From Oxalobacteraceae bacterium (GTDB lineage Bacteria > Pseudomonadota > Gammaproteobacteria > Burkholderiales > Burkholderiaceae_D), in the NCBI GenBank assembly GCA_947464955.1, contig CANHZI010000024.1:1-36746 (forward strand): DNA of 36,746 nt. The letters are read 5' to 3'. Below are positions 2 to 16,011 of this stretch, piece after piece. The notes under the pieces are model-generated. The model saw only the letters and a list, made by a program, of their open reading frames with translations, searched no databases and was not told the DNA's origin. Positions within the stretch are counted from its first letter, which is position 1. Every line of letters begins with the position of its first letter. The position numbers and the translations under genes are program-made.

Positions 2-3000
2 AATCAACTGCCGATTGAGCGTGAGCGCGCATACTTTTTTCAATCGATCTTACGCGAACTGTTATCGCAACGAGAGATCGACATAGAAGCCCTGATACAA
101 GAAGCAAAAGCGGACTCGGTGAAGTCGAGCGCGAGTTCTTTGGCGTCAGTGCTCGACCGAACATCAAGCACACAAGCTAAGCTGATCACTCAATCAGACG
201 AGACCAGCCACTCATTGGTGAATGCTACCGTGGCCGACGCCAGTAACGAGCAAGAAGCCCTACTTCATAGTATCGGTGCAGATCCCATACCGCATGCGAT
301 ACGCTTTCTACAAGCGATCGTGACGACGTCGATACCGACAGCATCGACATTTGACAGCGAAGGTCTGAGTGTACCCAAGCATGCAGATATCGCGACAACT
401 CAACAACTATGGCGAAGTAAACCCGCTCTACGCGCTTGGTTTATGAACTTCTTCTGTGAGGCTTTGCTTACCAACATTCGTCAGCAGAGTGTGAACGTCC
501 GTGTCGATAGCACACTGCAAGGAAATTTGACCGAAATCGCACATTGGCGACGCATGATACGCGACAGCCTGCAGCAGGCTCAGGACAGTCACCTAAGTTT
601 GATTTTAGGTGCAGCACTAGCCTCCCCTCATGCGAACTTCTTGAAGAAAGTATTGAAGCAAGAATTCGGCTTTGACGATGCGAAAATTGAGGCGTTTAAG
701 AACCCGGCTTCGGCGCAAGTCGAGCGTACTTCCGATTGGGAACAGGGCTTGATTGAAATGCTAGCCTTGTTCAAAGTATCTTCAGATGCTGAACCAAGAG
801 CGATGCCTGCACCTATTTATGGGGTATCAGACAAGGCGGTATCAAATAATCCAGCATCGGACGATGTCAGATCGAACAGTACTGCAGCATCTCAGCCTAC
901 GCTGCTCGAGCACTTGAGCACTTACTTATTCAGCACCCCAAGTGAGCACAAACAAACTGAAGATCAAACTTCTTCAACACCCGCAGAGAGGATTTCCCCT
1001 CTGCCGCGCGGATGGCGAGACACATTACCGCAAACACTAGCGGATGCTTTCCTAAGCTTAAACTTAGAAAAATTAGATGTAGTTTGGCCGGCACTGATTG
1101 ATTTTCATCGCGCTGATCTTGTTCGTGCTCAGCAACGTTATTTATCCCACGCCCATCAACGCCAAGGCCTATTGGAACAAAATCCGCGTGACAAGATTCT
1201 CGATTTAATTGAAGTCAATTCGGATAGGCTAGCTGCGCTAGTTCGCGAACTCAGCCTCGAGCTCAATACTCTACAAGAAATTTGGCGACTGCCAAATTCG
1301 GTTCAAGCATTGCAGCAGGATTTGTTACAGCACGCTTTCCATGCAAGCCTCAATAGGAGCTATTTACAGAAATCGAGCGCACAACAGTTGCTTCAGCTTT
1401 TACGTCAAAACAAAGACTGGCCGAAGAGCAGTGCAGATGAAGCAGATCTATTGCGCAAGGCGCTGTTCACATTCAATAAGAAGAATCGCCCAATACTAGA
1501 ACAAAGCTTCATCGCGATCTGTCACATGCTCGATATGGAACAGCTGACTATCGCCTTGGAGAATAAACAAGAAGCCAGCACAGAGCAGTTTGATGAAGAC
1601 TTAAGTCATAGCAGTGCCATAGTCGATGACCTCAAACTTTACGAGCAGTTCAGTCGGAAATCCTTGAGTAAAGCCGATACCGCAGAAGTCTTACGTCAGA
1701 TTTCTATGCGTAAATCCACCAACGAGGATCAAGGTCAAACTACATCACGCAGCGTTGAGGCTAGAGATAATGGCTCCACGCTGATTCAACAGCTGCAAGT
1801 AGAACTCGCCAATCGTGTCTGGACCACCAATACCGTGGAAGAAAGTCCGCACCTGTGGACGAAATTCGCACAAGCACTGCGCGCGCAGGCGAGAGAATTT
1901 CCCATCCTCGACGACAACAAACAAAGTACAGAAATCAGTTTTTATCGCTCCGACGAGATTTTGCCAGAACTCATCAGCGATGATCTGATTCAGAGCTTTG
2001 CCGAAGCCGATTTTGCTCTAAGTAAACAAGCTATCGAGGAGGAAGTAAATCAGAAGCGTGAATCACCAGTATCGACATCACCAACTCAGGAATCTGCGTT
2101 GGAAGAAGTAGAGACAAACGAATTAACATCTGTAGAAAACACTGATCTCATGACCCTCAGTGTCTTGCTTCAGTCTCTCGTGCCCATGAGCTCAGCAGAG
2201 CAACTGTGGGCGCGCAAATTTATTCGCGAATCCATGCTAGCGGCGCCGCGTTTTGTGGACTCCATTACGCGACTCTTGACGCGAGAGAGAATCAGGCAAC
2301 GTTGGTGTGCATTGCTCGAGAATGCCGATCTCGAGTATTTCTTTGGCCGTCATAGCCCAGAGATTTTTCCACATCTAGCAAAACTTGCTCATGCCTTCCA
2401 TGCCCAAGGGCTTCCCTGCATTAGCCAGAACGGACAGCAGTTCACAAAAGACTTCTGGATCATTGCATATCGCCTGCGCTTCGGATCAGAGTTAAAGAGT
2501 TTCAAGCAATTTGCGCCAGCGCTCATGAGTGCGCTCGCACAAGGGCTAGGCTCAACAGAAAAAACTCAGTCGCAGGAAGTCGCCTCTGCGAAAAATATAG
2601 AACAAGAACAACAGCAGCTTCGTCAGTTACAGCCACAAGTCGCGCCGTCAACCGACAGCCTACTCCAATCCCTACGCAATGAGCTTGAGCATCAAGCGCA
2701 GATCCGCAGCGAGCGACAGATCGCGCTAGAACGACAACAGCAAGCAGAACTTGCTGAGGTGAAGAAAAGAGCTCGCCTATTGGGAGAGGAAGAGGAGATT
2801 CCTTATGGCGAAAGCAATGTCAATAACGCGGGTATGGTAATCATTGCGCCTTATGTACAGCGTCTCTTCAATATTCTTGAATTGACCAAAGATGGTGCAT
2901 TCATTGACGACGCGGCAGCGGAACGGGCGGTCCATTTACTGCAATACGTGGTCTGTGCTCAAAGCCATACACCCGAATATCAACTCGCACTGAATAAACT

Positions 3001-3316
3001 CTTGTGCGGCATTCATGGTGGCGTGCCTATCGTCGCTGGTATCGAAGTCACGGAACACGAGAAGAATGTGATAGAACAAATGCTAAATGGGGTGATACAA
3101 CACTGGAGCGCATTAGGAAAGACATCGATCACTGGCTTAAGACAAACATTTTTGGCTAGGGAGGGACAACTCAGTTACGCAGACGAAAGTTGGCAGTTAC
3201 GTATTCCTCCATCCACTTTTGACATGTTACTCGACCGTTTGCCATGGAGTTTCTCGATGATACGGTTTCCGTGGATGCGCGCACCGCTCCATGTCACTTG
3301 GCGCACACAGTCCTAG
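2..3316 (+). CDS. Contractile injection system tape measure family protein (5' partial)
   Basis: The reading frame is open to the left edge, so the start lies outside the window; the GTG at 119 is internal. About 1104 residues are visible. The last ~170 residues carry the hallmarks of the CIS tape-measure family (Pvc14-like): a NNAG...P.. stretch near 2820, RAVHLLQY near 2930, LNKLLCGIHGG near 2995, FLAREGQL near 3150, then DMLLDRLPW and a closing PWMRAPLHVTW. A Gln/Glu/Arg-rich likely coiled coil (about 2660-2800) precedes this domain. In known systems the protein sets sheath/tube length inside a phage-tail-like particle. The next gene is the AAA+ ATPase that normally follows the tape measure in Pvc-type loci, which supports the call. 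The central region is divergent and rich in Gln, Ser and Glu. Only the C-terminal domain is confidently assigned. Confidence 0.88.
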   Translation, partial: NQLPIERERAYFFQSILRELLSQREIDIEALIQEAKADSVKSSASSLASVLDRTSSTQAKLITQSDETSHSLVNATVADASNEQEALLHSIGADPIPHAIRFLQAIVTTSIPTASTFDSEGLSVPKHADIATTQQLWRSKPALRAWFMNFFCEALLTNIRQQSVNVRVDSTLQGNLTEIAHWRRMIRDSLQQAQDSHLSLILGAALASPHANFLKKVLKQEFGFDDAKIEAFKNPASAQVERTSDWEQGLIEMLALFKVSSDAEPRAMPAPIYGVSDKAVSNNPASDDVRSNSTAASQPTLLEHLSTYLFSTPSEHKQTEDQTSSTPAERISPLPRGWRDTLPQTLADAFLSLNLEKLDVVWPALIDFHRADLVRAQQRYLSHAHQRQGLLEQNPRDKILDLIEVNSDRLAALVRELSLELNTLQEIWRLPNSVQALQQDLLQHAFHASLNRSYLQKSSAQQLLQLLRQNKDWPKSSADEADLLRKALFTFNKKNRPILEQSFIAICHMLDMEQLTIALENKQEASTEQFDEDLSHSSAIVDDLKLYEQFSRKSLSKADTAEVLRQISMRKSTNEDQGQTTSRSVEARDNGSTLIQQLQVELANRVWTTNTVEESPHLWTKFAQALRAQAREFPILDDNKQSTEISFYRSDEILPELISDDLIQSFAEADFALSKQAIEEEVNQKRESPVSTSPTQESALEEVETNELTSVENTDLMTLSVLLQSLVPMSSAEQLWARKFIRESMLAAPRFVDSITRLLTRERIRQRWCALLENADLEYFFGRHSPEIFPHLAKLAHAFHAQGLPCISQNGQQFTKDFWIIAYRLRFGSELKSFKQFAPALMSALAQGLGSTEKTQSQEVASAKNIEQEQQQLRQLQPQVAPSTDSLLQSLRNELEHQAQIRSERQIALERQQQAELAEVKKRARLLGEEEEIPYGESNVNNAGMVIIAPYVQRLFNILELTKDGAFIDDAAAERAVHLLQYVVCAQSHTPEYQLALNKLLCGIHGGVPIVAGIEVTEHEKNVIEQMLNGVIQHWSALGKTSITGLRQTFLAREGQLSYADESWQLRIPPSTFDMLLDRLPWSFSMIRFPWMRAPLHVTWRTQS

Positions 3317-3325
3317 GAAAAGAAG

Positions 3326-4672
3326 ATGGAAATTACACTCAACACTCATGCCCTTGAGCGAGAAATCGCCTGGTTTAGCAAAGTTTGCGAGACTCGCTTC
3401 GAGCACTATTTTCAACACAATGAGCAAGATATCGATCTTGATCAAGTCTGTCCGCCCCCCGCTCTTTCCGCCACTGACGGCCCGTATGCCAAAGTCGTCT
3501 TGGAATTTGGATTCGGTTACGCGGAACGGATCGTCATGATGTTAGCGCTGCTGCCCCATATACGACCACAAGCACTCGATTTATTCTCGCTACAGAATTC
3601 GGCCTTAGGACGTGCCTATAGCGAAATCGGCGGATGGCGTGGCAAGACGCATAGCGGCTTTTTGCCGACTTGTGAAACGGCTTCTTTTATTTTGGCTGGC
3701 AGCAATCTCGGCAAACGATTTGCTGTCGCGCGTCTGTTTAAAGATGATCATGCTTTTGCACGGCGCGGCATCATCAAATTAGACTCACAAGCGAGCGGTG
3801 AACCTGCTTTTGGTGCAGCCTTACAACTCAGTCATGAATTTTTGCAATTACTTGCAGATGGAGAAGCAGACAAACCTGACTTCAGTACCAATTTCCCTGC
3901 AAAATTAATGCAAACCAAACTCGAGTGGTCTGATTTGGTGCTCAACCAAGAAGTAATGGAAGAGGTCAATAATATTGTGACCTGGCTGCGCAGCCCTGAG
4001 AAAATTTTACAGAATTGGGGCTTGGAAAAAGCTCTCAAACCTGGCTATCGAGCCATGTTTTACGGTCCGCCAGGAACAGGAAAGACGCTCACTGCCAGCC
4101 TCATCGGCAAGGCTGTGGGTTCAGATGTTTATCGGATTGATTTATCGATGGTCGTTTCAAAATACATCGGTGAAACAGAAAAGAATTTGGCTGGCGTGTT
4201 TGACCAAGCGCAAAACAAGAATTGGATTCTGTTCTTTGATGAGGCCGACTCCCTGTTTGGCAAACGTACTCAGGCCAGTAGCTCGAACGACAGACACGCG
4301 AACCAAGAAATTTCATATCTCTTGCAAAGAGTTGAAGACTTTCCTGGTGTCGTGATTCTGGCGACAAACCTAAAGGCCAATATCGATGCGGCGTTCGCTC
4401 GACGATTTCAAAGTGAGGTTTACTTTGCGATGCCAGATGCGGCGCAACGCGAACGCCTGTGGCGCGGACTCTTCGCCAATACGAATAAACTCGATCAAGA
4501 TGTGAATTTCCGAGAAATCGCTGAACGCTATGAACTAGCAGGTGGCGCCCTGCTCAATGTCGCTCGTTATGCTGCGATTCGCGCTGTCAAGAGTAACCGT
4601 GATGTGATCACACAAGATGATTTACTTGCCGGTATAGGTAGAGAATTTATGAAGGATGGGAAAACACTGTGA
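3326..4672 (+). CDS. AAA+ ATPase of a contractile injection system (Pvc15-like)
   Basis: 448 residues. The C-terminal half is a single AAA+ module: Walker A GPPGTGKT at residues 247-254, Walker B FFDEAD with D305/E306, sensor-1 ATN near 340 and an ARRF arginine-finger region soon after. The N-terminal ~200 residues are a family-specific domain without a motif I can name. AAA+ ATPases of this type sit just after the tape measure gene in extracellular CIS loci and are thought to help assembly. The start ATG lies 9 nt after the upstream stop, with AGGAAAAGAAG as ribosome site, and the 3' end overlaps the next gene by 4 nt, so the three genes are one operon. All nucleotide-binding residues look intact. 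Confidence 0.88.
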   Translation: MEITLNTHALEREIAWFSKVCETRFEHYFQHNEQDIDLDQVCPPPALSATDGPYAKVVLEFGFGYAERIVMMLALLPHIRPQALDLFSLQNSALGRAYSEIGGWRGKTHSGFLPTCETASFILAGSNLGKRFAVARLFKDDHAFARRGIIKLDSQASGEPAFGAALQLSHEFLQLLADGEADKPDFSTNFPAKLMQTKLEWSDLVLNQEVMEEVNNIVTWLRSPEKILQNWGLEKALKPGYRAMFYGPPGTGKTLTASLIGKAVGSDVYRIDLSMVVSKYIGETEKNLAGVFDQAQNKNWILFFDEADSLFGKRTQASSSNDRHANQEISYLLQRVEDFPGVVILATNLKANIDAAFARRFQSEVYFAMPDAAQRERLWRGLFANTNKLDQDVNFREIAERYELAGGALLNVARYAAIRAVKSNRDVITQDDLLAGIGREFMKDGKTL

Positions 4673-7600
4673 AACGACTATATCAGTTCAACAGACAAAC
4701 GCTCGCTCTCGCGTGCTTATTTGCCGCCAGCGTATTTGCCAGCGCAACTAGCCATGCGTTTCAAATTGAGATTAGCACTACGACCAGTAATCCAGCAAGT
4801 GCCGCGAAAAAGAGCCAGGTTGAACCGGCTAAACCGGCAAAAGCGGGAAGCCAAGACGGTGCCGCCTCAGCAGCCAGCGTGACAACGACGCAGACTAAAG
4901 CGCCCGGAACAACGAAAACGGTCGATATCGTTGGCTACAACCGCAATATCAAACAAGAGCACTTCAAAGGCTTGAGTAAAGATGTGGTGTTGCGTATGCA
5001 AAGGCAACTCGAATCAATTTACAAGCTGCTACCAGATTGGCAGCACGACTACGCACTCAAAGGCGACCCGCTCAACGACGGTATCGTAGGGCCCATCACT
5101 CTCTCCTGGTTGCAACGCTTTGCTTTTAGCTTTAAGGCACACACTGAGGGCGACTATGCTAACAGTTTAGCCAACAATATTAATCGTATCGCGCAGTTTA
5201 GTATCAAACACAAAGATGAATTAACCATACTCATGAGCCCAGAGTTCGAAGCATGGGATTTCATGCAAGCGGAGAAGGTTAAACAGCAAGACTTTCAAAT
5301 TCGTCGACAAGGAAGTGATAAGGAGCTAATCGAGCTGGTCAACCGCTTTCGCGGCCAACGCAAATCGGCACCAAGAGTCGCGCCACGTACGGTGATCGAT
5401 GAAAGTGCATTTTTCTACTACAAGCTCAACCAAAATGATCTCGACCTCCTCGGTGGAAAAGATCAAATTGTGCAGATCCTGAGCGCGCTAAAGGATAAGG
5501 AATTCACCTCAAGCGAAGCCTTACGTGTCGCAGTGAAGCAAGCTTTTGGTGGACGCGATCACTTAGTCAATCAGATTTGGCCCTTGATCGAACGTAATGC
5601 CGCTGATTTTGACGGTTATCTCATTAACGAAGCCGCACTTAGTCGCTTAAAAGAAGCGAGTGAATTTCCATCGGCGGTTATTGATGAGTTACGTTTGCAG
5701 GGAACAATCTATTTCAAGACGCGAGAACTATTTGACGCTTTCATTACTGAAAAATTCGCGAGCGACGCGCTGATCTTGAGCGAAGATGAACGTGAGCAAA
5801 TCGCTGAAGCCTCGCAAGTGTTTGACAATATTCATCTGACGGCACAATCCATCGCGAATATTAAAGTCCAGCTAAAAGGAAACGTACAGAACAGTGGTAT
5901 CCCATCAGTACTGGTACGTTTGCTAGGGCAAATCAAAGACGTTAGCTATCCAGAGCTAAGCTTGCTACGTAGCGCAGTCATATCAAAAATGATTATGGGT
6001 ATTGGCGCCTGTAAGATGAATTCACCAACCAGCAATGCGTATGTCGCCGGCCTTCGCATGCCAGATGAAGAATTCGCATTACTCGCCAAAGATCTCAGCG
6101 CTTTGCAACCACAAAGCATGGATGGCAGGATTGACCATAGTTTCGATGCGAAAAAAACCTTCGAAGAACTGAAGCGTCTGCGTCTGCAAGTAAGCCAATG
6201 CGATAAGCCAAGTTTTCAAGAAAGCCGTCGATTGATACAAGAGATTTACCACAACTATCTCGCCATCGCGATTGAGAACATGGCGAAGAAACGTATCCCA
6301 GATGAGATCGCGCCGATCACCTTGAAAGGTGGGGACTGCGGTTGTGCGCTCGATGATTTCGCTGGCGTCGTGTACGGATTTTATCCCTACTGGAATAATC
6401 AAAAAAGCGAACAGACCATGAACTTCCATGTGCTCAATCGCGTCGCCTACTATGGGCTCACGGTCGATAATGTGGGTGATTTGCGCCTTGGTCTGGTGCC
6501 ATTTGATGTCAAGGATGGTTCAGCAGCATCAAATCAATTTATCCGCCTGGCGCATCAATACAACTCTAAAGTCGATTGGCTTATTCAGAAGAACGACTGG
6601 AACGGTGATTGGAAGCGCTACTCACGCGAAAATAAACAAGCAGTCTTGCGCAAGTTGATTGTGAATATCAGCAATCTTCTCAGAACACGTTTGAAGGACA
6701 CAGGATCTCAATTGCGCCCCTACGTCACTTTAGGGATGTCAGCCCCAATTACTCGCGGAGATGGCGTTACTGTTTACTTCCAAAACTACCCTAAAGATGC
6801 AGACTCGGCGCTATTGTTCAATGAATTCTTCCTCGCCTTACGGAAAGAACTGGCGAAAGACAAAGTATGGATCAATATTCTGGTTGCACAAGACGTGCTC
6901 AACGACGACACTGAAGGGCGTCAGGGTGCCTTTGCTTTACCTAATTTGATTAAGCTTAAAAAAGCTTCAAACCAAAGAGGGACAACGGTCAATCGCGATC
7001 TGATCGACGAATACTTGCTGGTTCTGCTCAACGAGCCAAGTACAGATGCCAAGAAACAATTACGTCTGAATATCGAAAGCGAACAAGGTCTGCATGGGAA
7101 TGCCCGCGCTGAATTCTTACGTAGCGTCATTCCGGTAATGCAGTTCGACAACCATAATTGGCAACAACTCGAAGATGACGTCGTCTATGCCAGCGACAAC
7201 TTCGGCGGCATGGGCTTGTGGGCACCTGACTTTGACAACATCGCCAAACCGACAACAAATATGGCAGAACCCTGTTATCGCGGTCAGCAAATTGCTCTGT
7301 GCATCTTGCGCAACTTCCGCGAATCTAACCAGGTCGAGAAGCTGCCCTCAGCGATCGCTCGCTTTGCATGCGTCAACCGTTGGTACTTACAATTGGCATT
7401 GACCGGCTTCCTTCTCATCGCTATTACTTTAGCCGTTCTGTTCGCAAAATACTGCGAGGTTCAATCCTTAATTAAGCGCTACTTCCTGTGGGTGCTCGCT
7501 TTCAATATTGTGCCGCCACTGGTGATCTTCATACTTCTCCTGTTTTTTGATCCCTATTTGACAAGCCTATCGAAAGGCAATTTGCCGTTTATTATTGCGA

Positions 7601-8091
7601 TTGGAGTGATCTTGGTAGGGACGATTGCAGGCTATCTCTATCTTCGTTCGCAACGTGATCTGCCGCAAAGGCAACGAGCATTGCCGCAACGCCAAGGAAT
7701 GGGTTTCCCGATTATCTCGTGGACGATAGAAACCGATGAACATGGCTTCCGTTGGATCATTCGCAATCGCGGAACGGGCTACGGCATCATTAAGAAGGTT
7801 GAAATTCTGCTCGATGGTCAATCAGTGGCAGATGCTAAGACCGCGCTTGAGGCAGTGCTTGGACCCGACAAAAATCTGCTGTGGAAGAGCCTGCCGCTGA
7901 TCGGGCAGAAGATTATGCCTGGTGAAACCGTGACAGGGATCTCAATTACCGATCCCGAGTCTGCACTTGCCTTTGACAAGAAGCTGCGTGAACATCAGCT
8001 TCAAGTCATGATCACCTATTACTCCGCCAATAATGAACATTGGATTAGCGACGGTAAAGAGGTATCGGCGATTGGCGCGGCTTCCTATTAG
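4669..8091 (+). CDS. Exported membrane protein: PG-binding-like region, degenerate GH18-like domain, three C-terminal TM helices
   Basis: 1140 residues, start GTG overlapping the ATPase stop (GTGA), with AAGGATGGG upstream. A Sec signal peptide ends near SHA|FQ (about residue 30), followed by an Ala/Lys/Thr-rich linker. Residues ~105-150 (QRQLESIY...DGIVGPITLSWLQRF) resemble PG_binding_1. From about 555 a GH18-like barrel seems to begin (VVYGFYPYW, then NRVAYYGLTVD). The segment matching the chitinase DGxDxDxE motif reads DGVTVYFQ (698-705), so both inner Asp and the catalytic Glu are replaced. Hydrophobic helices at ~905-927, ~938-961 and ~972-992, with basic loops, place the last ~150 residues in the cytoplasm by the positive-inside rule. 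I know no named family for the whole chain. Translational coupling to the CIS genes suggests a role as envelope anchor, release factor or wall-binding partner (inference). Confidence 0.68.
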   Translation: MKRLYQFNRQTLALACLFAASVFASATSHAFQIEISTTTSNPASAAKKSQVEPAKPAKAGSQDGAASAASVTTTQTKAPGTTKTVDIVGYNRNIKQEHFKGLSKDVVLRMQRQLESIYKLLPDWQHDYALKGDPLNDGIVGPITLSWLQRFAFSFKAHTEGDYANSLANNINRIAQFSIKHKDELTILMSPEFEAWDFMQAEKVKQQDFQIRRQGSDKELIELVNRFRGQRKSAPRVAPRTVIDESAFFYYKLNQNDLDLLGGKDQIVQILSALKDKEFTSSEALRVAVKQAFGGRDHLVNQIWPLIERNAADFDGYLINEAALSRLKEASEFPSAVIDELRLQGTIYFKTRELFDAFITEKFASDALILSEDEREQIAEASQVFDNIHLTAQSIANIKVQLKGNVQNSGIPSVLVRLLGQIKDVSYPELSLLRSAVISKMIMGIGACKMNSPTSNAYVAGLRMPDEEFALLAKDLSALQPQSMDGRIDHSFDAKKTFEELKRLRLQVSQCDKPSFQESRRLIQEIYHNYLAIAIENMAKKRIPDEIAPITLKGGDCGCALDDFAGVVYGFYPYWNNQKSEQTMNFHVLNRVAYYGLTVDNVGDLRLGLVPFDVKDGSAASNQFIRLAHQYNSKVDWLIQKNDWNGDWKRYSRENKQAVLRKLIVNISNLLRTRLKDTGSQLRPYVTLGMSAPITRGDGVTVYFQNYPKDADSALLFNEFFLALRKELAKDKVWINILVAQDVLNDDTEGRQGAFALPNLIKLKKASNQRGTTVNRDLIDEYLLVLLNEPSTDAKKQLRLNIESEQGLHGNARAEFLRSVIPVMQFDNHNWQQLEDDVVYASDNFGGMGLWAPDFDNIAKPTTNMAEPCYRGQQIALCILRNFRESNQVEKLPSAIARFACVNRWYLQLALTGFLLIAITLAVLFAKYCEVQSLIKRYFLWVLAFNIVPPLVIFILLLFFDPYLTSLSKGNLPFIIAIGVILVGTIAGYLYLRSQRDLPQRQRALPQRQGMGFPIISWTIETDEHGFRWIIRNRGTGYGIIKKVEILLDGQSVADAKTALEAVLGPDKNLLWKSLPLIGQKIMPGETVTGISITDPESALAFDKKLREHQLQVMITYYSANNEHWISDGKEVSAIGAASY

Positions 8092-8111: not shown

Positions 8112-8159
8112 AAAAAGAGATGGTCTCGCATAGACTCATGTGGACCGTCTCTTTTTTTT
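8112..8159. terminator. Bidirectional Rho-independent terminator
   Basis: An inverted repeat (AAAAAGAGATGGTCT ... GGACCGTCTCTTTTT, with two G-U pairs) is followed by a run of T on the + strand and by T5 on the - strand. It lies between the CIS operon and the convergent doxX-like gene, whose stop codon overlaps the T run. Confidence 0.88.
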
Positions 8160-11708: not shown

Positions 11709-13589
11709 ATGACAAACGCACCTGCAATTCGCTTCGGATCAGCATCTTGGTTCTGGCTGGGTTTCGTTTCTTTGCTCTTAGTTGCGCTATGTTGCGGCCA
11801 AAACGCGAGCGCTATCACTGCACAACAGCAGAATAATTTAGAACAAATTACTCAGGATAGCCAGCAATCCTACACTCTCACCGAAGCCAAGATTCTTGCG
11901 GAGTTAAAGACCAACGCTGATCCCGATTATCGTTTACAGCTTTTAATCAAACAGGCACAACTTCACGACCTGTATCAACGCTATGAGCTCTTGCTTTCAG
12001 TCGCAAAAGAAGGCCAAGTACTTGCACAAACATTAAAGCAAGACTCATCCCAGCTTTTGTTTAACATCATGGAAGCAAATGCACTTAACCTCATTGGAAA
12101 GTCGTACGAGGCTTTACGTATTCACCAGGGCGCGGCAAGCCTGCTTCAGGGAAGCAAGCCTGAAGTTCGCTATTTCGGAATACTGTCATTAGCAAATGCC
12201 CATATGGCCCTCAACCAAAACGAACTTGCGACCAAAGAGCTCAATAGCATCGTCAATGCGACCGATGCACCGCCGATGTTGAAGTCCAAAGCGAGTTTGG
12301 CACTCGCTGAGCTACAAATGAATATCCTTCAATATGCCAAAAGTCTTGAGTATTAACGCAAAGCTTTAGAGATAAGCCCAGCATCCATGAACCAACTTAT
12401 ACTCACCGCAGAAATGGGCATTGCGCAGGCACTCAATGGGCTCAAAAAACACCAAGAGGCCATCCTCAAAATTGATAAAGTCATTCACGACTTTCATCAA
12501 AGTGGCAACCTGAACGCAGAAGCATATGCCTTGTTATTAAGAGGCTATTTCTATTCCAAATTACATCAATTCTCACGTGCTGAACCTTCATACCTTCAAT
12601 CTGCAGCGCTTTATGAAAAACTCGGCAATCCACAAAAACTCTCGAATATCTATACGCATTTATCCGGTCACTATACTGATCTTAAAGACATAGACAAAGC
12701 GCTTGAATATGGAGAGAAAACCCTTGCACTCGCACTCAAGTCAAGCAATCTAGGACTACAATGGGATGCCTATGCCATCTTGGCTGAAGCGAGAGCGGTC
12801 GAGGGCAATCACAAGTTAGCTTACCAACATATGGGTAAGGCGTTTGAGACACTGCTTGAGAGTTCCAAACAAACTTTAGAGAGCCAGACTATCTTAATGC
12901 GTGAGCAATTTGATGCCGAACGCAAGGAAAAGGAGAACACCATCTTGGCCGAGAAACTGGCGATAGATGGGCTTATTCTAAGTAGCAAGAAGCGCGAAAT
13001 TTGGATCTTGAGCATACTCGTCATTGTCATGACGATTTCCCTCGTCGCTTTGCTTCGCGCTTATCGCAGCACGCGCTACCTAGCGCAGCACGATGGTCTA
13101 ACAGGCCTGCTCAATCGGCGTCAAGTTCTCCGTCAAGGAGAACAAGAGTTCGAACGCGCCAAACGCTACCATACGCCGCTTTCGATCGTCAGTTTCGACA
13201 TCGATCATTTCAAAGAAATCAATGACGAGTTCGGACATGCAGAAGGTGATAAGGTCTTGAAGTGCGTTGGCAATATTTGTAAAGACGTCGTTCGAGGCAG
13301 TGATTTTGTAGGCCGGCTCGGTGGAGAAGAGTTTCTCATTGTTCTCTCGCATAGCGAAAAAGAAGGCGCCCTTAAGTTTGCGGAGCGTGTGCGCGAACGG
13401 CTCAGCCAAGACGTCAATCATCATTTACGTTGTACTGTCACTGCGAGCTTTGGAGTCGTACAAATGTCAGCTAATGACACTGATTTCGAAAGTCTCTTAC
13501 AACGCGCTGACATCGCCATGTATCACGCTAAATCACATGGTCGAAATCAATGCTCAACCGTTGATTTGCAAATTGTCTCAAGCGCCTAG
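11709..13589 (+). pseudogene. TPR-repeat membrane diguanylate cyclase split by one in-frame stop codon
   Basis: The ATG at 11709 has GGGGAG 8 nt upstream and opens a signal-anchor/signal peptide (WFWLGFVSLLLVALCCGQNASA). Periplasmic TPR-like helices follow. At 12354-12356 a TAA interrupts the frame at codon 216; the same frame continues without change in phase (KSLEY*RKALEI, a TPR helix where Tyr would be expected) through more TPRs, a membrane helix (EIWILSILVIVMTISLVALL) and a GGDEF domain with GGEEF at codons 538-542 and an RGSD inhibitory site. The cyclase half is intact. If the stop is real the protein is truncated before its output domain. An internal start at 12387 could make only a signal-less fragment. 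Sequencing error or readthrough is also possible. Confidence 0.85.
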
Positions 13590-13660
13590 AGCGATTGATC
13601 AGCGACATTCCTGATCTGTTCGAGTCCATAAAACTGGTGTCACCTGCGCTTGTTTCTCAC

Positions 13661-15679
13661 TTATTCTAGGGTTTGATCTAAGAATCGAATATGTCTACGT
13701 ACATATGTGGGTCTCAAGTGTCCATCATCCTTGTACTTAGGCGTCAAGTCATCGTCAACGCTACTGCAAACGTCGTCTCGGCATATGGTATCGGTTGGAT
13801 CAATTACGATGGCACCACTGTCATGCCCAAGTTGAATCAAATCCTGCTTTATTTTCGAAAAAGCCGACTCAAACTCACTTAGGCGCCTGCCGCCGGTGCG
13901 TAAGGAAAAGCCTTGCCAGAGACTCATGATCGACCGCTTGGCGATGTACGATGGATTAAACTCGAGACCGATGGGAATGTTCAAAACCAAATAAACATCC
14001 AAGCCGCGACGCTTCATCATCTTGATTTCGTCCGCTAGCGCGCTTAAGGCTTTACGGTATCCCTCAGAGTCCTTACCGATCGGATACTCTTTTCCATCTG
14101 CTACAAATTTCGTGTTTTGAGTCTCAATAAAAAGATAGCCATACCACTGTGCAGCGATTACCACTTTGCGAATATCTGCCCTTGAATTCAAAACTTTGAC
14201 AACGCCATTGGCAACGCCCTCGCATAGGGTATTTTGTTTGGATACGGTATTTGGAATGGGCAAACATCCGCCTTCACTCAAGAAAATGATCTTGTTCGAT
14301 TTGGGATTTTCTTCGATCAAATGAGCGGCTCTTGGATAGTACTGTTCTAAGTTACTGTCGCCAATGAACAAAGTCGTTGCGTTACCTTCGGAATTTTGCT
14401 GAAACAGACTTACACCAGCCAAATCGCCGCGTTTCATTTGCCCCGGAAATTCCCACTCATTCTGTGCTTTTGAAATCGCCTGAAATTGTGATGCACGGAA
14501 AACCAATCCATCACGTGAGTAGGTGTTATAGCCGAGATAGGCTAGCGCCATCATCAAGATCAGCAATACTGCACTAACCATCACTGGAGACCTCGTATGA
14601 CGTATCGGCTTCTCGATCAAGAGGTAGGTTAGCGTAGCAAGCACGACCGCCAAGGCCAACATCCATAACTTCATTTGGTTGGTCGCTTGGCCGACTTCTA
14701 AGATGGTGAGCAAGGACAATAGAGGCCAATGCCAAAGATATAGGGGGAAACTAATTAATCCTATCGCCACCATTAGCCGATTTGACAGCAACACCTTAGC
14801 GAGTTGGCTATCTTTACCAGCGAATATTAGGCATGCAGCACCCATCGTCGGCAACAAGCCATACCAGCCCGGAAATTGTTTTTCATCTCGAATTAGAATA
14901 AAAGCGCTTGCGATGACGATGGCACCGATCACGGACAATAAATTCGAAGCATTTACACTCAAGCTTGAACCGTTTTCATCGATGCCTCTAAGGTCTTCTC
15001 TTCGTTTAACAAAGATCGCGACGATGCCGCCAATCGCGAGTTCCCAAGCTCTAGTATGAGGAAGGAAAAAGGTTTGCACTGGGTCAATTGTGATCAAGCA
15101 CACGTTCGCAACAAAAGAGCATAAGGCTAAAACTACCATTGGAATCAAGGGCCTAGCTCTACACTTCAATATCAAGATTAAGAATAAAGGCCAGAAAACA
15201 TAGAACTGTTCTTCAACGCCGAGTGACCAAAGATGCAGTAATGGCTTTTGTTGAGAAGCAACATCAAAGTAGCCGCTTTCAAGCCAGTACATTACATTCG
15301 CACCAAAGCCCGCACTCGCAGCCATATGCTGACCGAGCATCTTATATTCGGATGCCAGCAAGCTACGCCAGCCGAGGACATAGACACTCAACATCACCAG
15401 CAGAAGTGCCGGAAAAATGCGGCGTATTCGGCGCCCATAGAAATCCAAGATACTGAAATGACCTTGATCAACCTGTTTCAGGATAATCGATGTAATTAAA
15501 AATCCGGAAATCACAAAAAAGATATCGACACCAATGAATCCCGAAGGTAAGAGGTGGGGGAATGCATGGTAAATCAGCACAGCGATAACAGCGATTGCGC
15601 GCAATCCATCAATATCGGGGCGATAAGCATTGTGAAAGGGTTTAGGTGAGGCGGAGTTCGGCGATTTTTTGATGGTCAT
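13661..15679 (-). CDS. OafA/YrhL-type membrane acyltransferase with C-terminal SGNH-like domain
   Basis: 672 residues. The N-terminal half is an acyltransferase-3 membrane domain of about ten helices, opening with YRPDIDGLRAIAV...YHA and GFIGVDIFFVISGFLIT, and later SLGVEEQFYVFWP and FPLYLWHWPLL. The C-terminal ~270 residues are periplasmic and resemble an SGNH domain (FIGDSNLEQYYPR near residue 430, and DDGHLRPTYVRRH at the end, giving the Ser and the Asp/His parts). Such proteins O-acetylate lipopolysaccharide, exopolysaccharide or peptidoglycan; the substrate cannot be told. It lies alone, convergent with the broken cyclase and with a weak ribosome site. Confidence 0.92.
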   Translation of the reverse strand: MTIKKSPNSASPKPFHNAYRPDIDGLRAIAVIAVLIYHAFPHLLPSGFIGVDIFFVISGFLITSIILKQVDQGHFSILDFYGRRIRRIFPALLLVMLSVYVLGWRSLLASEYKMLGQHMAASAGFGANVMYWLESGYFDVASQQKPLLHLWSLGVEEQFYVFWPLFLILILKCRARPLIPMVVLALCSFVANVCLITIDPVQTFFLPHTRAWELAIGGIVAIFVKRREDLRGIDENGSSLSVNASNLLSVIGAIVIASAFILIRDEKQFPGWYGLLPTMGAACLIFAGKDSQLAKVLLSNRLMVAIGLISFPLYLWHWPLLSLLTILEVGQATNQMKLWMLALAVVLATLTYLLIEKPIRHTRSPVMVSAVLLILMMALAYLGYNTYSRDGLVFRASQFQAISKAQNEWEFPGQMKRGDLAGVSLFQQNSEGNATTLFIGDSNLEQYYPRAAHLIEENPKSNKIIFLSEGGCLPIPNTVSKQNTLCEGVANGVVKVLNSRADIRKVVIAAQWYGYLFIETQNTKFVADGKEYPIGKDSEGYRKALSALADEIKMMKRRGLDVYLVLNIPIGLEFNPSYIAKRSIMSLWQGFSLRTGGRRLSEFESAFSKIKQDLIQLGHDSGAIVIDPTDTICRDDVCSSVDDDLTPKYKDDGHLRPTYVRRHIRFLDQTLE

Positions 15680-16011
15680 AGTAGTTTACCAAGTACCTCA
15701 AGCGATTAAGGCGCTCGAAGTACCTCTTTGATTTTTTGGGTCTTGGACCCTGCGCTGGGGAATGGCAAATTATATAACAAGCTACGCTTGTAGCATCTAT
15801 TTTTTCGAGCTAGAGAGCAAAAAACAGAAAATATATTTAGATTTTCTTGCCTCAGCTATCCAATAAATCCGAGTCAGGACGACCGTTGACAGCCATAACA
15901 CGGTACTTTTCACTTCGAAAGATCACAACAATGGCATCAATTTGAAAACAAATTGATTATTAAATTCACATTGAATTATAATGATTTTTTGTTATTTAAA
16001 ATAGTCAATTC
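15680..16011. other. AT-rich intergenic region between divergent genes
   Basis: No ORF of note. The region becomes strongly AT-rich towards the lipoprotein gene and holds the promoter candidate listed separately. The acyltransferase promoter should be on the opposite strand here, but I see no clear one. Confidence 0.5.
15953..15982 (+). promoter_or_regulatory. Candidate sigma-70 promoter for the lipoprotein gene
   Basis: TTGATT, an 18-bp spacer and a perfect TATAAT end 29 nt before the ATG at 16012. The predicted leader is therefore about 20-25 nt, which fits the lack of a strong ribosome site. Confidence 0.55.

Follow-up and report, generated by a model that had tools for sequence, protein, structure and literature searches.

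A membrane protein linked to contractile injection systems in Undibacterium and relatives, and its possible role as an envelope dock

The Streptomyces membrane protein CisA is needed for contraction of the contractile injection system (CIS) in situ and is not part of the extended particle structure, according to the available text of its report (PMC12237407). As described there, CisA (SCO4242) has 468 amino acids (aa), one helix, a flexible cytosolic N-terminus and a solute-binding-like C-terminal domain; its gene lies just downstream of the baseplate genes, the particles are free in the cytoplasm, and CisA is proposed to recruit them to the membrane (PMC12237407). In the thylakoid-anchored CIS (tCIS) of Anabaena, Cis13 (All3316) is reported in the text at hand to have its own C-terminal membrane helix (PMC8894136). 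In the accessible portion of the AlgoCIS report, a cage of Alg11 homologues is taken as the site attaching T6SSiv to the inner membrane (PMC8894135). Here we analyze a 36,746-nt stretch of DNA from an Oxalobacteraceae bacterium (hereafter the window), which encodes a 1140-residue protein, P3, behind the tape-measure and ATPase genes of a CIS. P3 is a dedicated part of this CIS, and we slightly favor the view that it is the envelope dock of a distinct CIS type, with docking itself an inference.

Like CisA as described, P3 appears to be a membrane protein of a CIS locus with a folded periplasmic domain. It differs in its signal-like N-terminus, a domain resembling glycoside hydrolase family 18 (GH18), three helices, and a gene position after the ATPase; the two are set apart here by these partial descriptions and not by sequences. 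P3 would thus be a CIS membrane adaptor of a different architecture, unassigned as a whole protein in Pfam, NCBIfam and PHROGs. With the thylakoid-anchored CIS the locus shares anchoring as a concept, and the N-terminal motif of Cis13 recurs in the accompanying fibre. In contrast to Cis13 as described, that fibre has a conserved tip and no membrane-like stretch, and P3 is a separate membrane protein. The cage of Alg11 homologues, as far as its report describes it, is a possible contact of P3. The membrane complex of the type VI secretion system (T6SS) consists of TssJLM with peptidoglycan (PG) anchors of the TagL type, and it likewise anchors a contractile machine in the inner membrane and wall. 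P3 differs from it in matching no Pfam family, eCIS_core included, even at E values as high as 1; the source genome has no DotU/TssL (0 matches to PF09850), and the CIS here has a tape measure.

A relative with a deposited structure is chain B of PDB entry 9r9a ("Uncharacterized protein", 864 aa). It is homologous to P3 in three stretches covering the N-terminal region, the barrel and the helices (E 1.1e-57 in all; 3.9e-5 for the helix stretch alone), and it ends in ...DKP as short-tailed P3 members do. The large cytosolic tail of the window protein is absent from it. Among PDB sheaths, the one in entries 9r9h, 9r9i, 9r9n and 9rce (CIS sheath, "SalCis12") is the closest to the sheath encoded in the related U. 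aquatile locus (E 3.8e-205); judging from entry codes and homology, 9r9a would come from the same CIS project. It was not among the listed fold-search matches for P3, and a literature search (bioRxiv outside its scope) returned nothing for 9R9A with contractile injection system, for SalCIS, or for Undibacterium with contractile injection system. The deposited structure makes it likely that others are working on the P3 family.

P3 and its linkage to contractile injection systems

The window is contig C24 of the source genome (G000), positions 1-36746. It begins at the contig end and opens inside the tape-measure protein (TMP) gene, cutting the CIS locus on its left. The genes at this end are:

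2..3316, + strand: TMP, 3' part of the CIS tape-measure gene, 5' end open, 1104 aa remaining (PF19268 CIS_TMP, E 4.2e-74)
3326..4672, + strand: AAA+ ATPase (PF00004, E 5.9e-29), starting 9 nt past the TMP stop
4669..8091, + strand: P3, CIS-associated, exported-looking inner-membrane protein of 1140 aa; GTG start, GTGA overlapping the ATPase stop by 4 nt
8112..8156, + strand: intrinsic terminator; hairpin of -28 kcal/mol (z -4.77, 0/200 shuffles) with a U-run, between convergent genes, ending the operon

The initial annotation, made from the letters of the window, had read this layout with the right coordinates. We take the ATPase to be Afp15/Pvc15-like from its gene position. The upstream genes that the annotation had proposed to look for, encoding sheath, tube and baseplate, are present in the same genome; the remaining CIS genes of G000 lie on contig C8.

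The distribution of P3 was followed in 43 Undibacterium genomes (genus sample), 300 genomes of the order and 398 of the phylum, the last searched with profile A2. G000 is in all three samples and the carriers G239 and G015 are in two each, giving 28 distinct carriers. Every convincing P3 match has CIS_TMP no more than 2-3 kb upstream. In the genus, P3 occurs in 14/43 genomes and CIS_TMP in 16/43; all 14 are within the 16, and 27/43 genomes have neither. P3 is less than 2 kb from TMP on the same contig and strand in 14/14 carriers. The two genomes with CIS_TMP only are G701, whose locus lacks P3 and whose genome is 89% complete, and G707, which holds a remnant. The G707 stretch (G707:C2:456469-458135, L155) is a decayed CIS in which a TMP end with stops and an ATPase frame can be read, with no P3.

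P3 matches were found in 14/300 genomes of the order and CIS_TMP in 19/300; both are present in 13, with P3 adjoining TMP/ATPase, and CIS_TMP occurs without P3 in six. The fourteenth match (G178, E 3.8e-4) covers only aa 931-1004, the membrane helices, in a genome without CIS_TMP, and was dropped as a homologue. Profile A2 matched 7/398 genomes of the phylum. Five are convincing, all with CIS_TMP just upstream; G437 and G338, which match profile positions 113-180 only and have no CIS_TMP, were dropped. CIS_TMP itself was found in 10/398 genomes (one below the cut-off), five of them without P3. The annotation had proposed co-occurrence with CIS as a check, and the convincing relatives are indeed in CIS loci in 14/14 (genus), 13/13 (order) and 5/5 (phylum) cases; with the three dropped genomes retained, the figures become 13/14 for the order and 5/7 for the phylum. 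Among the five phylum carriers, G530 and G596 lie outside the order but within the class and G362 belongs to another class, so that P3 is present in two classes of the phylum. No P3 relative was found in viral contigs (profile A2), and plasmids gave no match to P3 aa 538-1010.

In G530 the ATPase gene lies downstream on the opposite strand and P3 still follows TMP. The G530 ATPase branches with that of G220, which has no P3 (support 100/100), in trees that omit the near-copies L007, L004, L006 and G284 and pieces shorter than 151 aa and have long branches for G279, G220, G205 and G448. This arrangement and the tree indicate that P3 travels with the structural module and not with the ATPase. 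An apparent absence of the ATPase from some loci was an artefact of open reading frame calling in GC-rich DNA; a six-frame profile search recovered the gene.

TMP frames read whole in P3 loci measure 1175-2520 aa; that of P3-positive G692 measures 1004 aa, with a contig end possibly involved. TMP frames without P3 are either 492-804 aa (G115, G218, G170, G427, G448, G279) or about 1310-1485 aa long (G205, G220, G408, G701). The last four rule out that P3 simply tracks long tape measures. Long TMP frames accompany P3 without requiring it.

Architecture of P3

P3 begins with a signal-like start and a variable N-terminal module, continues through helices, a GH18-like barrel and three membrane helices, and usually closes with a short cytosolic end. 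In the window protein the parts are:

4669..4761, + strand: signal-peptide-like start, aa 1-31; charged start, hydrophobic core ending near SHAFQ
4951..5148, + strand: PG-binding-like segment, aa 95-160, DGIVGPITLSWLQRF, with the motif DGxxGxxT
5149..6303, + strand: mostly helical middle, aa 161-545, from the secondary structure of a low-confidence model
6304..7368, + strand: CxC and GH18-like barrel region, aa 546-900, with weak fold and profile support; catalytic motif lost
7369..7662, + strand: three transmembrane helices, aa 901-998, from hydropathy; conserved C901, R904, C929 and D961-P962 (invariant columns of 16 sequences)
7696..8058, + strand: cytosolic ApaG/Ig-like tail, aa 1010-1130, limited to some Undibacterium and close kin

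By hydropathy prediction P3 is a membrane protein with an extracytoplasmic domain encoded in a CIS locus. The signal peptide of the initial annotation finds partial support. Judged by eye and hydropathy only, the start is charged and has a hydrophobic core (11-residue peak 2.48, against a maximum of 1.84 in residues 41-900), yet the window protein was not flagged here by a 19-residue scan at threshold 1.6. An N-terminal hydrophobic segment was flagged in 16/25 members. At the other end, three hydrophobic segments fall at residues 905-994, and positive charge is enriched in the would-be cytosolic loops. Three such C-terminal segments occur in 23/25 members and two in G362 and G257. The large tail domain is a different matter: it is missing in 15 short-tailed members, 12 of which have proline as the last residue, and therefore a general role for the tail is unsupported.

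The PG-binding-like region reported earlier holds as a motif. DGxxGxxT is found in the window P3 and in 17/20 aligned members, whereas Pfam PG_binding_1 reached at best E 0.011, short of the cut-off, in 2/16 members that do not include the window P3. The N-terminal module matches an Ig-like domain in 2/16 members; since these do so and three aligned members lack the motif, wall binding as a general property of the family is unsupported. G437:C1:528045-528248 and G338:C29:205387-205590, in genomes without CIS_TMP, match a single P3 segment (profile positions 113-180), which lies beside the PG-binding-like region and is perhaps a shared repeat.

The CxC and barrel region and the membrane helices are the best-conserved common parts of the family. 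Weak fold-search and profile matches hint at a GH18-type TIM barrel, and SleL and YdhD rank among its closest matches in structure. Where GH18 has DGxDxDxE, the window P3 has DGVTVYFQ (aa 698-705). The full motif is absent in 16/16 aligned rows, and the position of the catalytic Glu is occupied by D in six, Q in three, P in three, and E, R, S and K in one each. The GH18-like barrel of the annotation is thus retained as a weakly supported fold, apparently without enzymatic activity. P3 is set apart from the GH18 glycosidases (SleL, YdhD, chitinases) by this loss and by being a membrane protein in a CIS operon. AlphaFold gave a mean pLDDT (per-residue confidence) of 41.6 and a pTM (overall fold confidence) of 0.28 for full-length P3 (9 sequences), and a pLDDT of 58 and a pTM of 0.64 for the barrel alone; because both models are weak, what is said here of the fold is worded with reserve. 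NCBIfam gave a sub-threshold match to the membrane helices only, and PHROGs gave no match to P3.

Docking and competing explanations

A short conserved fibre is encoded in all 17 P3 loci whose fibre site was read, G000 and G694 included; in G257 it is on another contig. This count omits L002-L009 (stretches that stop short of the fibre site), G170, G502, G350 and the decayed G707 locus, and within the genus sample the loci considered are those of G000, G239, G694 and G701. At its N-terminus the fibre is similar to Anabaena Cis13 (E 0.0028, chain residues 1-41). Its middle resembles fibre proteins, presumably of Bdellovibrio (8ond, named bd2133, E 1.7e-5). Across 12 sequences the identity is 53% in the Cis13-like end, 26% in the middle and 50% in the tip, and none of the 12 has a 19-residue stretch above 1.5 in hydropathy. 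Among nine P3-less loci with the fibre site read, six gave no match, two (G205, G448) have the N-terminal motif only, and one (G701) has the tip. So little variation would be unusual in a tip that had to bind receptors on changing targets. The conservation of the tip suggests a constant partner, for which P3 is a candidate.

The proposal that P3 docks the particle builds on four computed results, namely the CIS link, the membrane-protein features, the loss of the catalytic motif and the co-occurrence with one fibre type; from these we infer export and orientation, docking, the contact partner, wall binding and the firing direction. The proline end of 12/15 short-tailed members and the lack of DotU/TssL in the genome also speak for it, and CisA is the nearest precedent examined by experiment (PMC12237407). 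After export, P3 would sit in the inner membrane by way of its three helices, and about 870 residues would stand in the periplasm, held by the wall or by glycans. There it would present a variable N-terminal adhesive module (PG-binding-like in the window), the helices, and the GH18-like barrel, retained as a binding or scaffold fold and not as an enzyme. The cytosolic end would face the particle; it is predicted to be short and usually proline-terminated, and enlarged by an extra domain in the lineage of the window. A particle with a long tape measure would assemble in the cytosol and be drawn to P3 with its baseplate leading. The contact would run through the cytosolic loop and C-terminus of P3 and perhaps include the conserved fibre tip, and the particle would fire while held at the envelope. 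A more far-reaching version is put forward tentatively. These CIS may form a separate proteobacterial class, unreleased, permanently docked and fired outward through the envelope of the producer, a tape-measured counterpart of the T6SS. P3 alone would then be the whole trans-envelope anchor: the chitinase-like barrel would serve as a wall- or glycan-held brace, the three helices would cross the membrane, and the "-[KRL]P" end of the chain would signal docking to the baseplate or the conserved fibre tip.

Several observations weigh against docking. The PG-binding-like motif is absent from 3/20 aligned members, and the 15 short-tailed members have from a handful to about 20 residues past the last helix, which is little for a dock. 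Both structure models are of low confidence. Some CIS with long tape measures (G205, G220, G408, G701) lack P3, and the fibre tip carried by G701 without P3 speaks against strict dependence. A released particle would agree as well with the eCIS_core cargo encoded in P3 loci and at other places in the genome. In the sheath tree, 13 rows with P3 form one group against seven without it (support 86/71, not strong); this grouping and the long branches elsewhere mean that the co-occurrences may be few independent events. Much of the co-occurrence of P3 with CIS may reflect shared descent.

The strongest alternative, which we consider doubtful, is that P3 acts as proposed for CisA, as a sensor of stress or of the envelope and as a trigger: floating particles would be recruited only on a signal and fire into the cell's own envelope and not out towards neighbouring cells, causing programmed death. 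The CisA precedent in the accessible text has free particles, a membrane protein needed for contraction, and a periplasmic domain likened to solute-binding domains (PMC12237407), and the conserved GH18-like barrel of P3 could bind a glycan signal. However, nothing points to such a signal, self-puncture has no obvious need of the long tape measures (at least 1175 aa in wholly read P3 loci), and the architecture of P3 is unlike that given in the available description of CisA.

P3 could instead protect the producer or its kin, either as a shield or plug of the inner membrane that keeps out the producer's own particle, or as the receptor in kin cells. The CIS linkage would also fit an immunity partner, and the conserved fibre tip a conserved receptor. 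Immunity genes usually track effectors, whereas P3 follows the structural module, and it is very large for immunity; we regard this explanation as improbable.

The initial annotation had left open an anchor or a release device. Its membrane-protein features and its link to the structural module of the CIS make P3 look more like an anchor than like a free effector. A release device opening the producer wall for particle escape, like a fused holin-endolysin, would agree with the membrane helices, the PG-binding-like segment and the GH18-like fold near SleL and YdhD. The loss of DGxDxDxE in all 16 members makes such a lysin slightly more improbable still than protection, and the lytic half of the earlier suggestion is not supported. 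That P3 is an effector or surface display protein merely sharing the operon is very improbable: it does stand at the operon end, with eCIS_core cargo downstream in several loci, but it begins with a signal-like segment, has membrane helices of its own, matches neither eCIS_core nor any other Pfam family with E values up to 1 allowed, and is kept in two classes of the phylum.

The remainder of the locus and wider meaning

G000 (completeness 97.79%) is an Undibacterium genome whose P3 shares 82% identity with the U. nitidum protein. Contig C8 encodes a cap, a 266-aa protein, the sheath, two tubes, a third tube protein, the spike, gp25, baseplate J, the fibre and a 97-aa protein, along with a small protein after the spike that we take to be PAAR-like. 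Cap, sheath, J, fibre and the Cis12-like gene were labelled by profile, the others by place and sequence start against the U. aquatile locus. Those with coordinates are:

C8 13872-14447: cap gene, the operon's first (profile match)
C8 (L136) 13063-13863: 266-aa protein between cap and sheath (place and sequence start)
C8 11519-13045: sheath (profile match)
C8 3199-7038: baseplate J (profile match)
C8 2378-3202: fibre (profile match)
running off base 1 of C8: 5' part of a Cis12-like gene (profile match)

The cap that the initial annotation expected after the ATPase is therefore present: it is the first gene of the operon and, in G000, lies on a separate contig. C8 and C24 most likely form adjoining halves, because TMP comes after the Cis12-like gene in U. 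nitidum. The Afp/Pvc-type set (sheath, tube, baseplate, spike, TMP and AAA ATPase) is encoded together in U. aquatile (G239), and in G000 both halves are present, on C8 and C24. The P3 locus of G015 (G015:C1:3140000-3145186, L065) has no sheath or cap gene within about 5 kb before gp25; this CIS may be split in the chromosome.

The terminator behind P3 is absent from the list of a consensus scan, which probably missed it owing to a bulge in the hairpin stem. The roughly 270-aa protein encoded between cap and sheath occurs also at L064 12846-13652. It is found in 13 P3 loci with the start read, weakly in the P3-less G205 and G701, and not in G220, and it has no match in Pfam, NCBIfam or PHROG. 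A small methyltransferase gene directly follows P3 in several loci (for instance L007 13349-13945, L008, G214, G281, G069, G029 and G362); in G000 one lies at C8 (L136) 14974-15741 on the minus strand, beyond the cap gene, at the opposite end of the CIS. G000 has three eCIS_core (DUF4157) matches, two on C27 and one on C142 (L151-L153), contigs other than that of P3; these proteins, encoded away from the CIS operon, are candidate cargo. In Solimicrobium silvestre a 1052-aa eCIS_core protein is encoded directly after P3 (L009 13568-16726).

The question behind these observations is how contractile systems other than the T6SS meet the membrane of their producer, for which the known cases, in the portions of the reports at hand, are the tCIS fibres and CisA. 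P3 is a conserved, operon-linked membrane protein that keeps to a single CIS lineage and a single type of fibre across two classes of the phylum, and it offers a specific gene and a short C-terminal motif for testing. It might help to separate anchored from released CIS in genomes.

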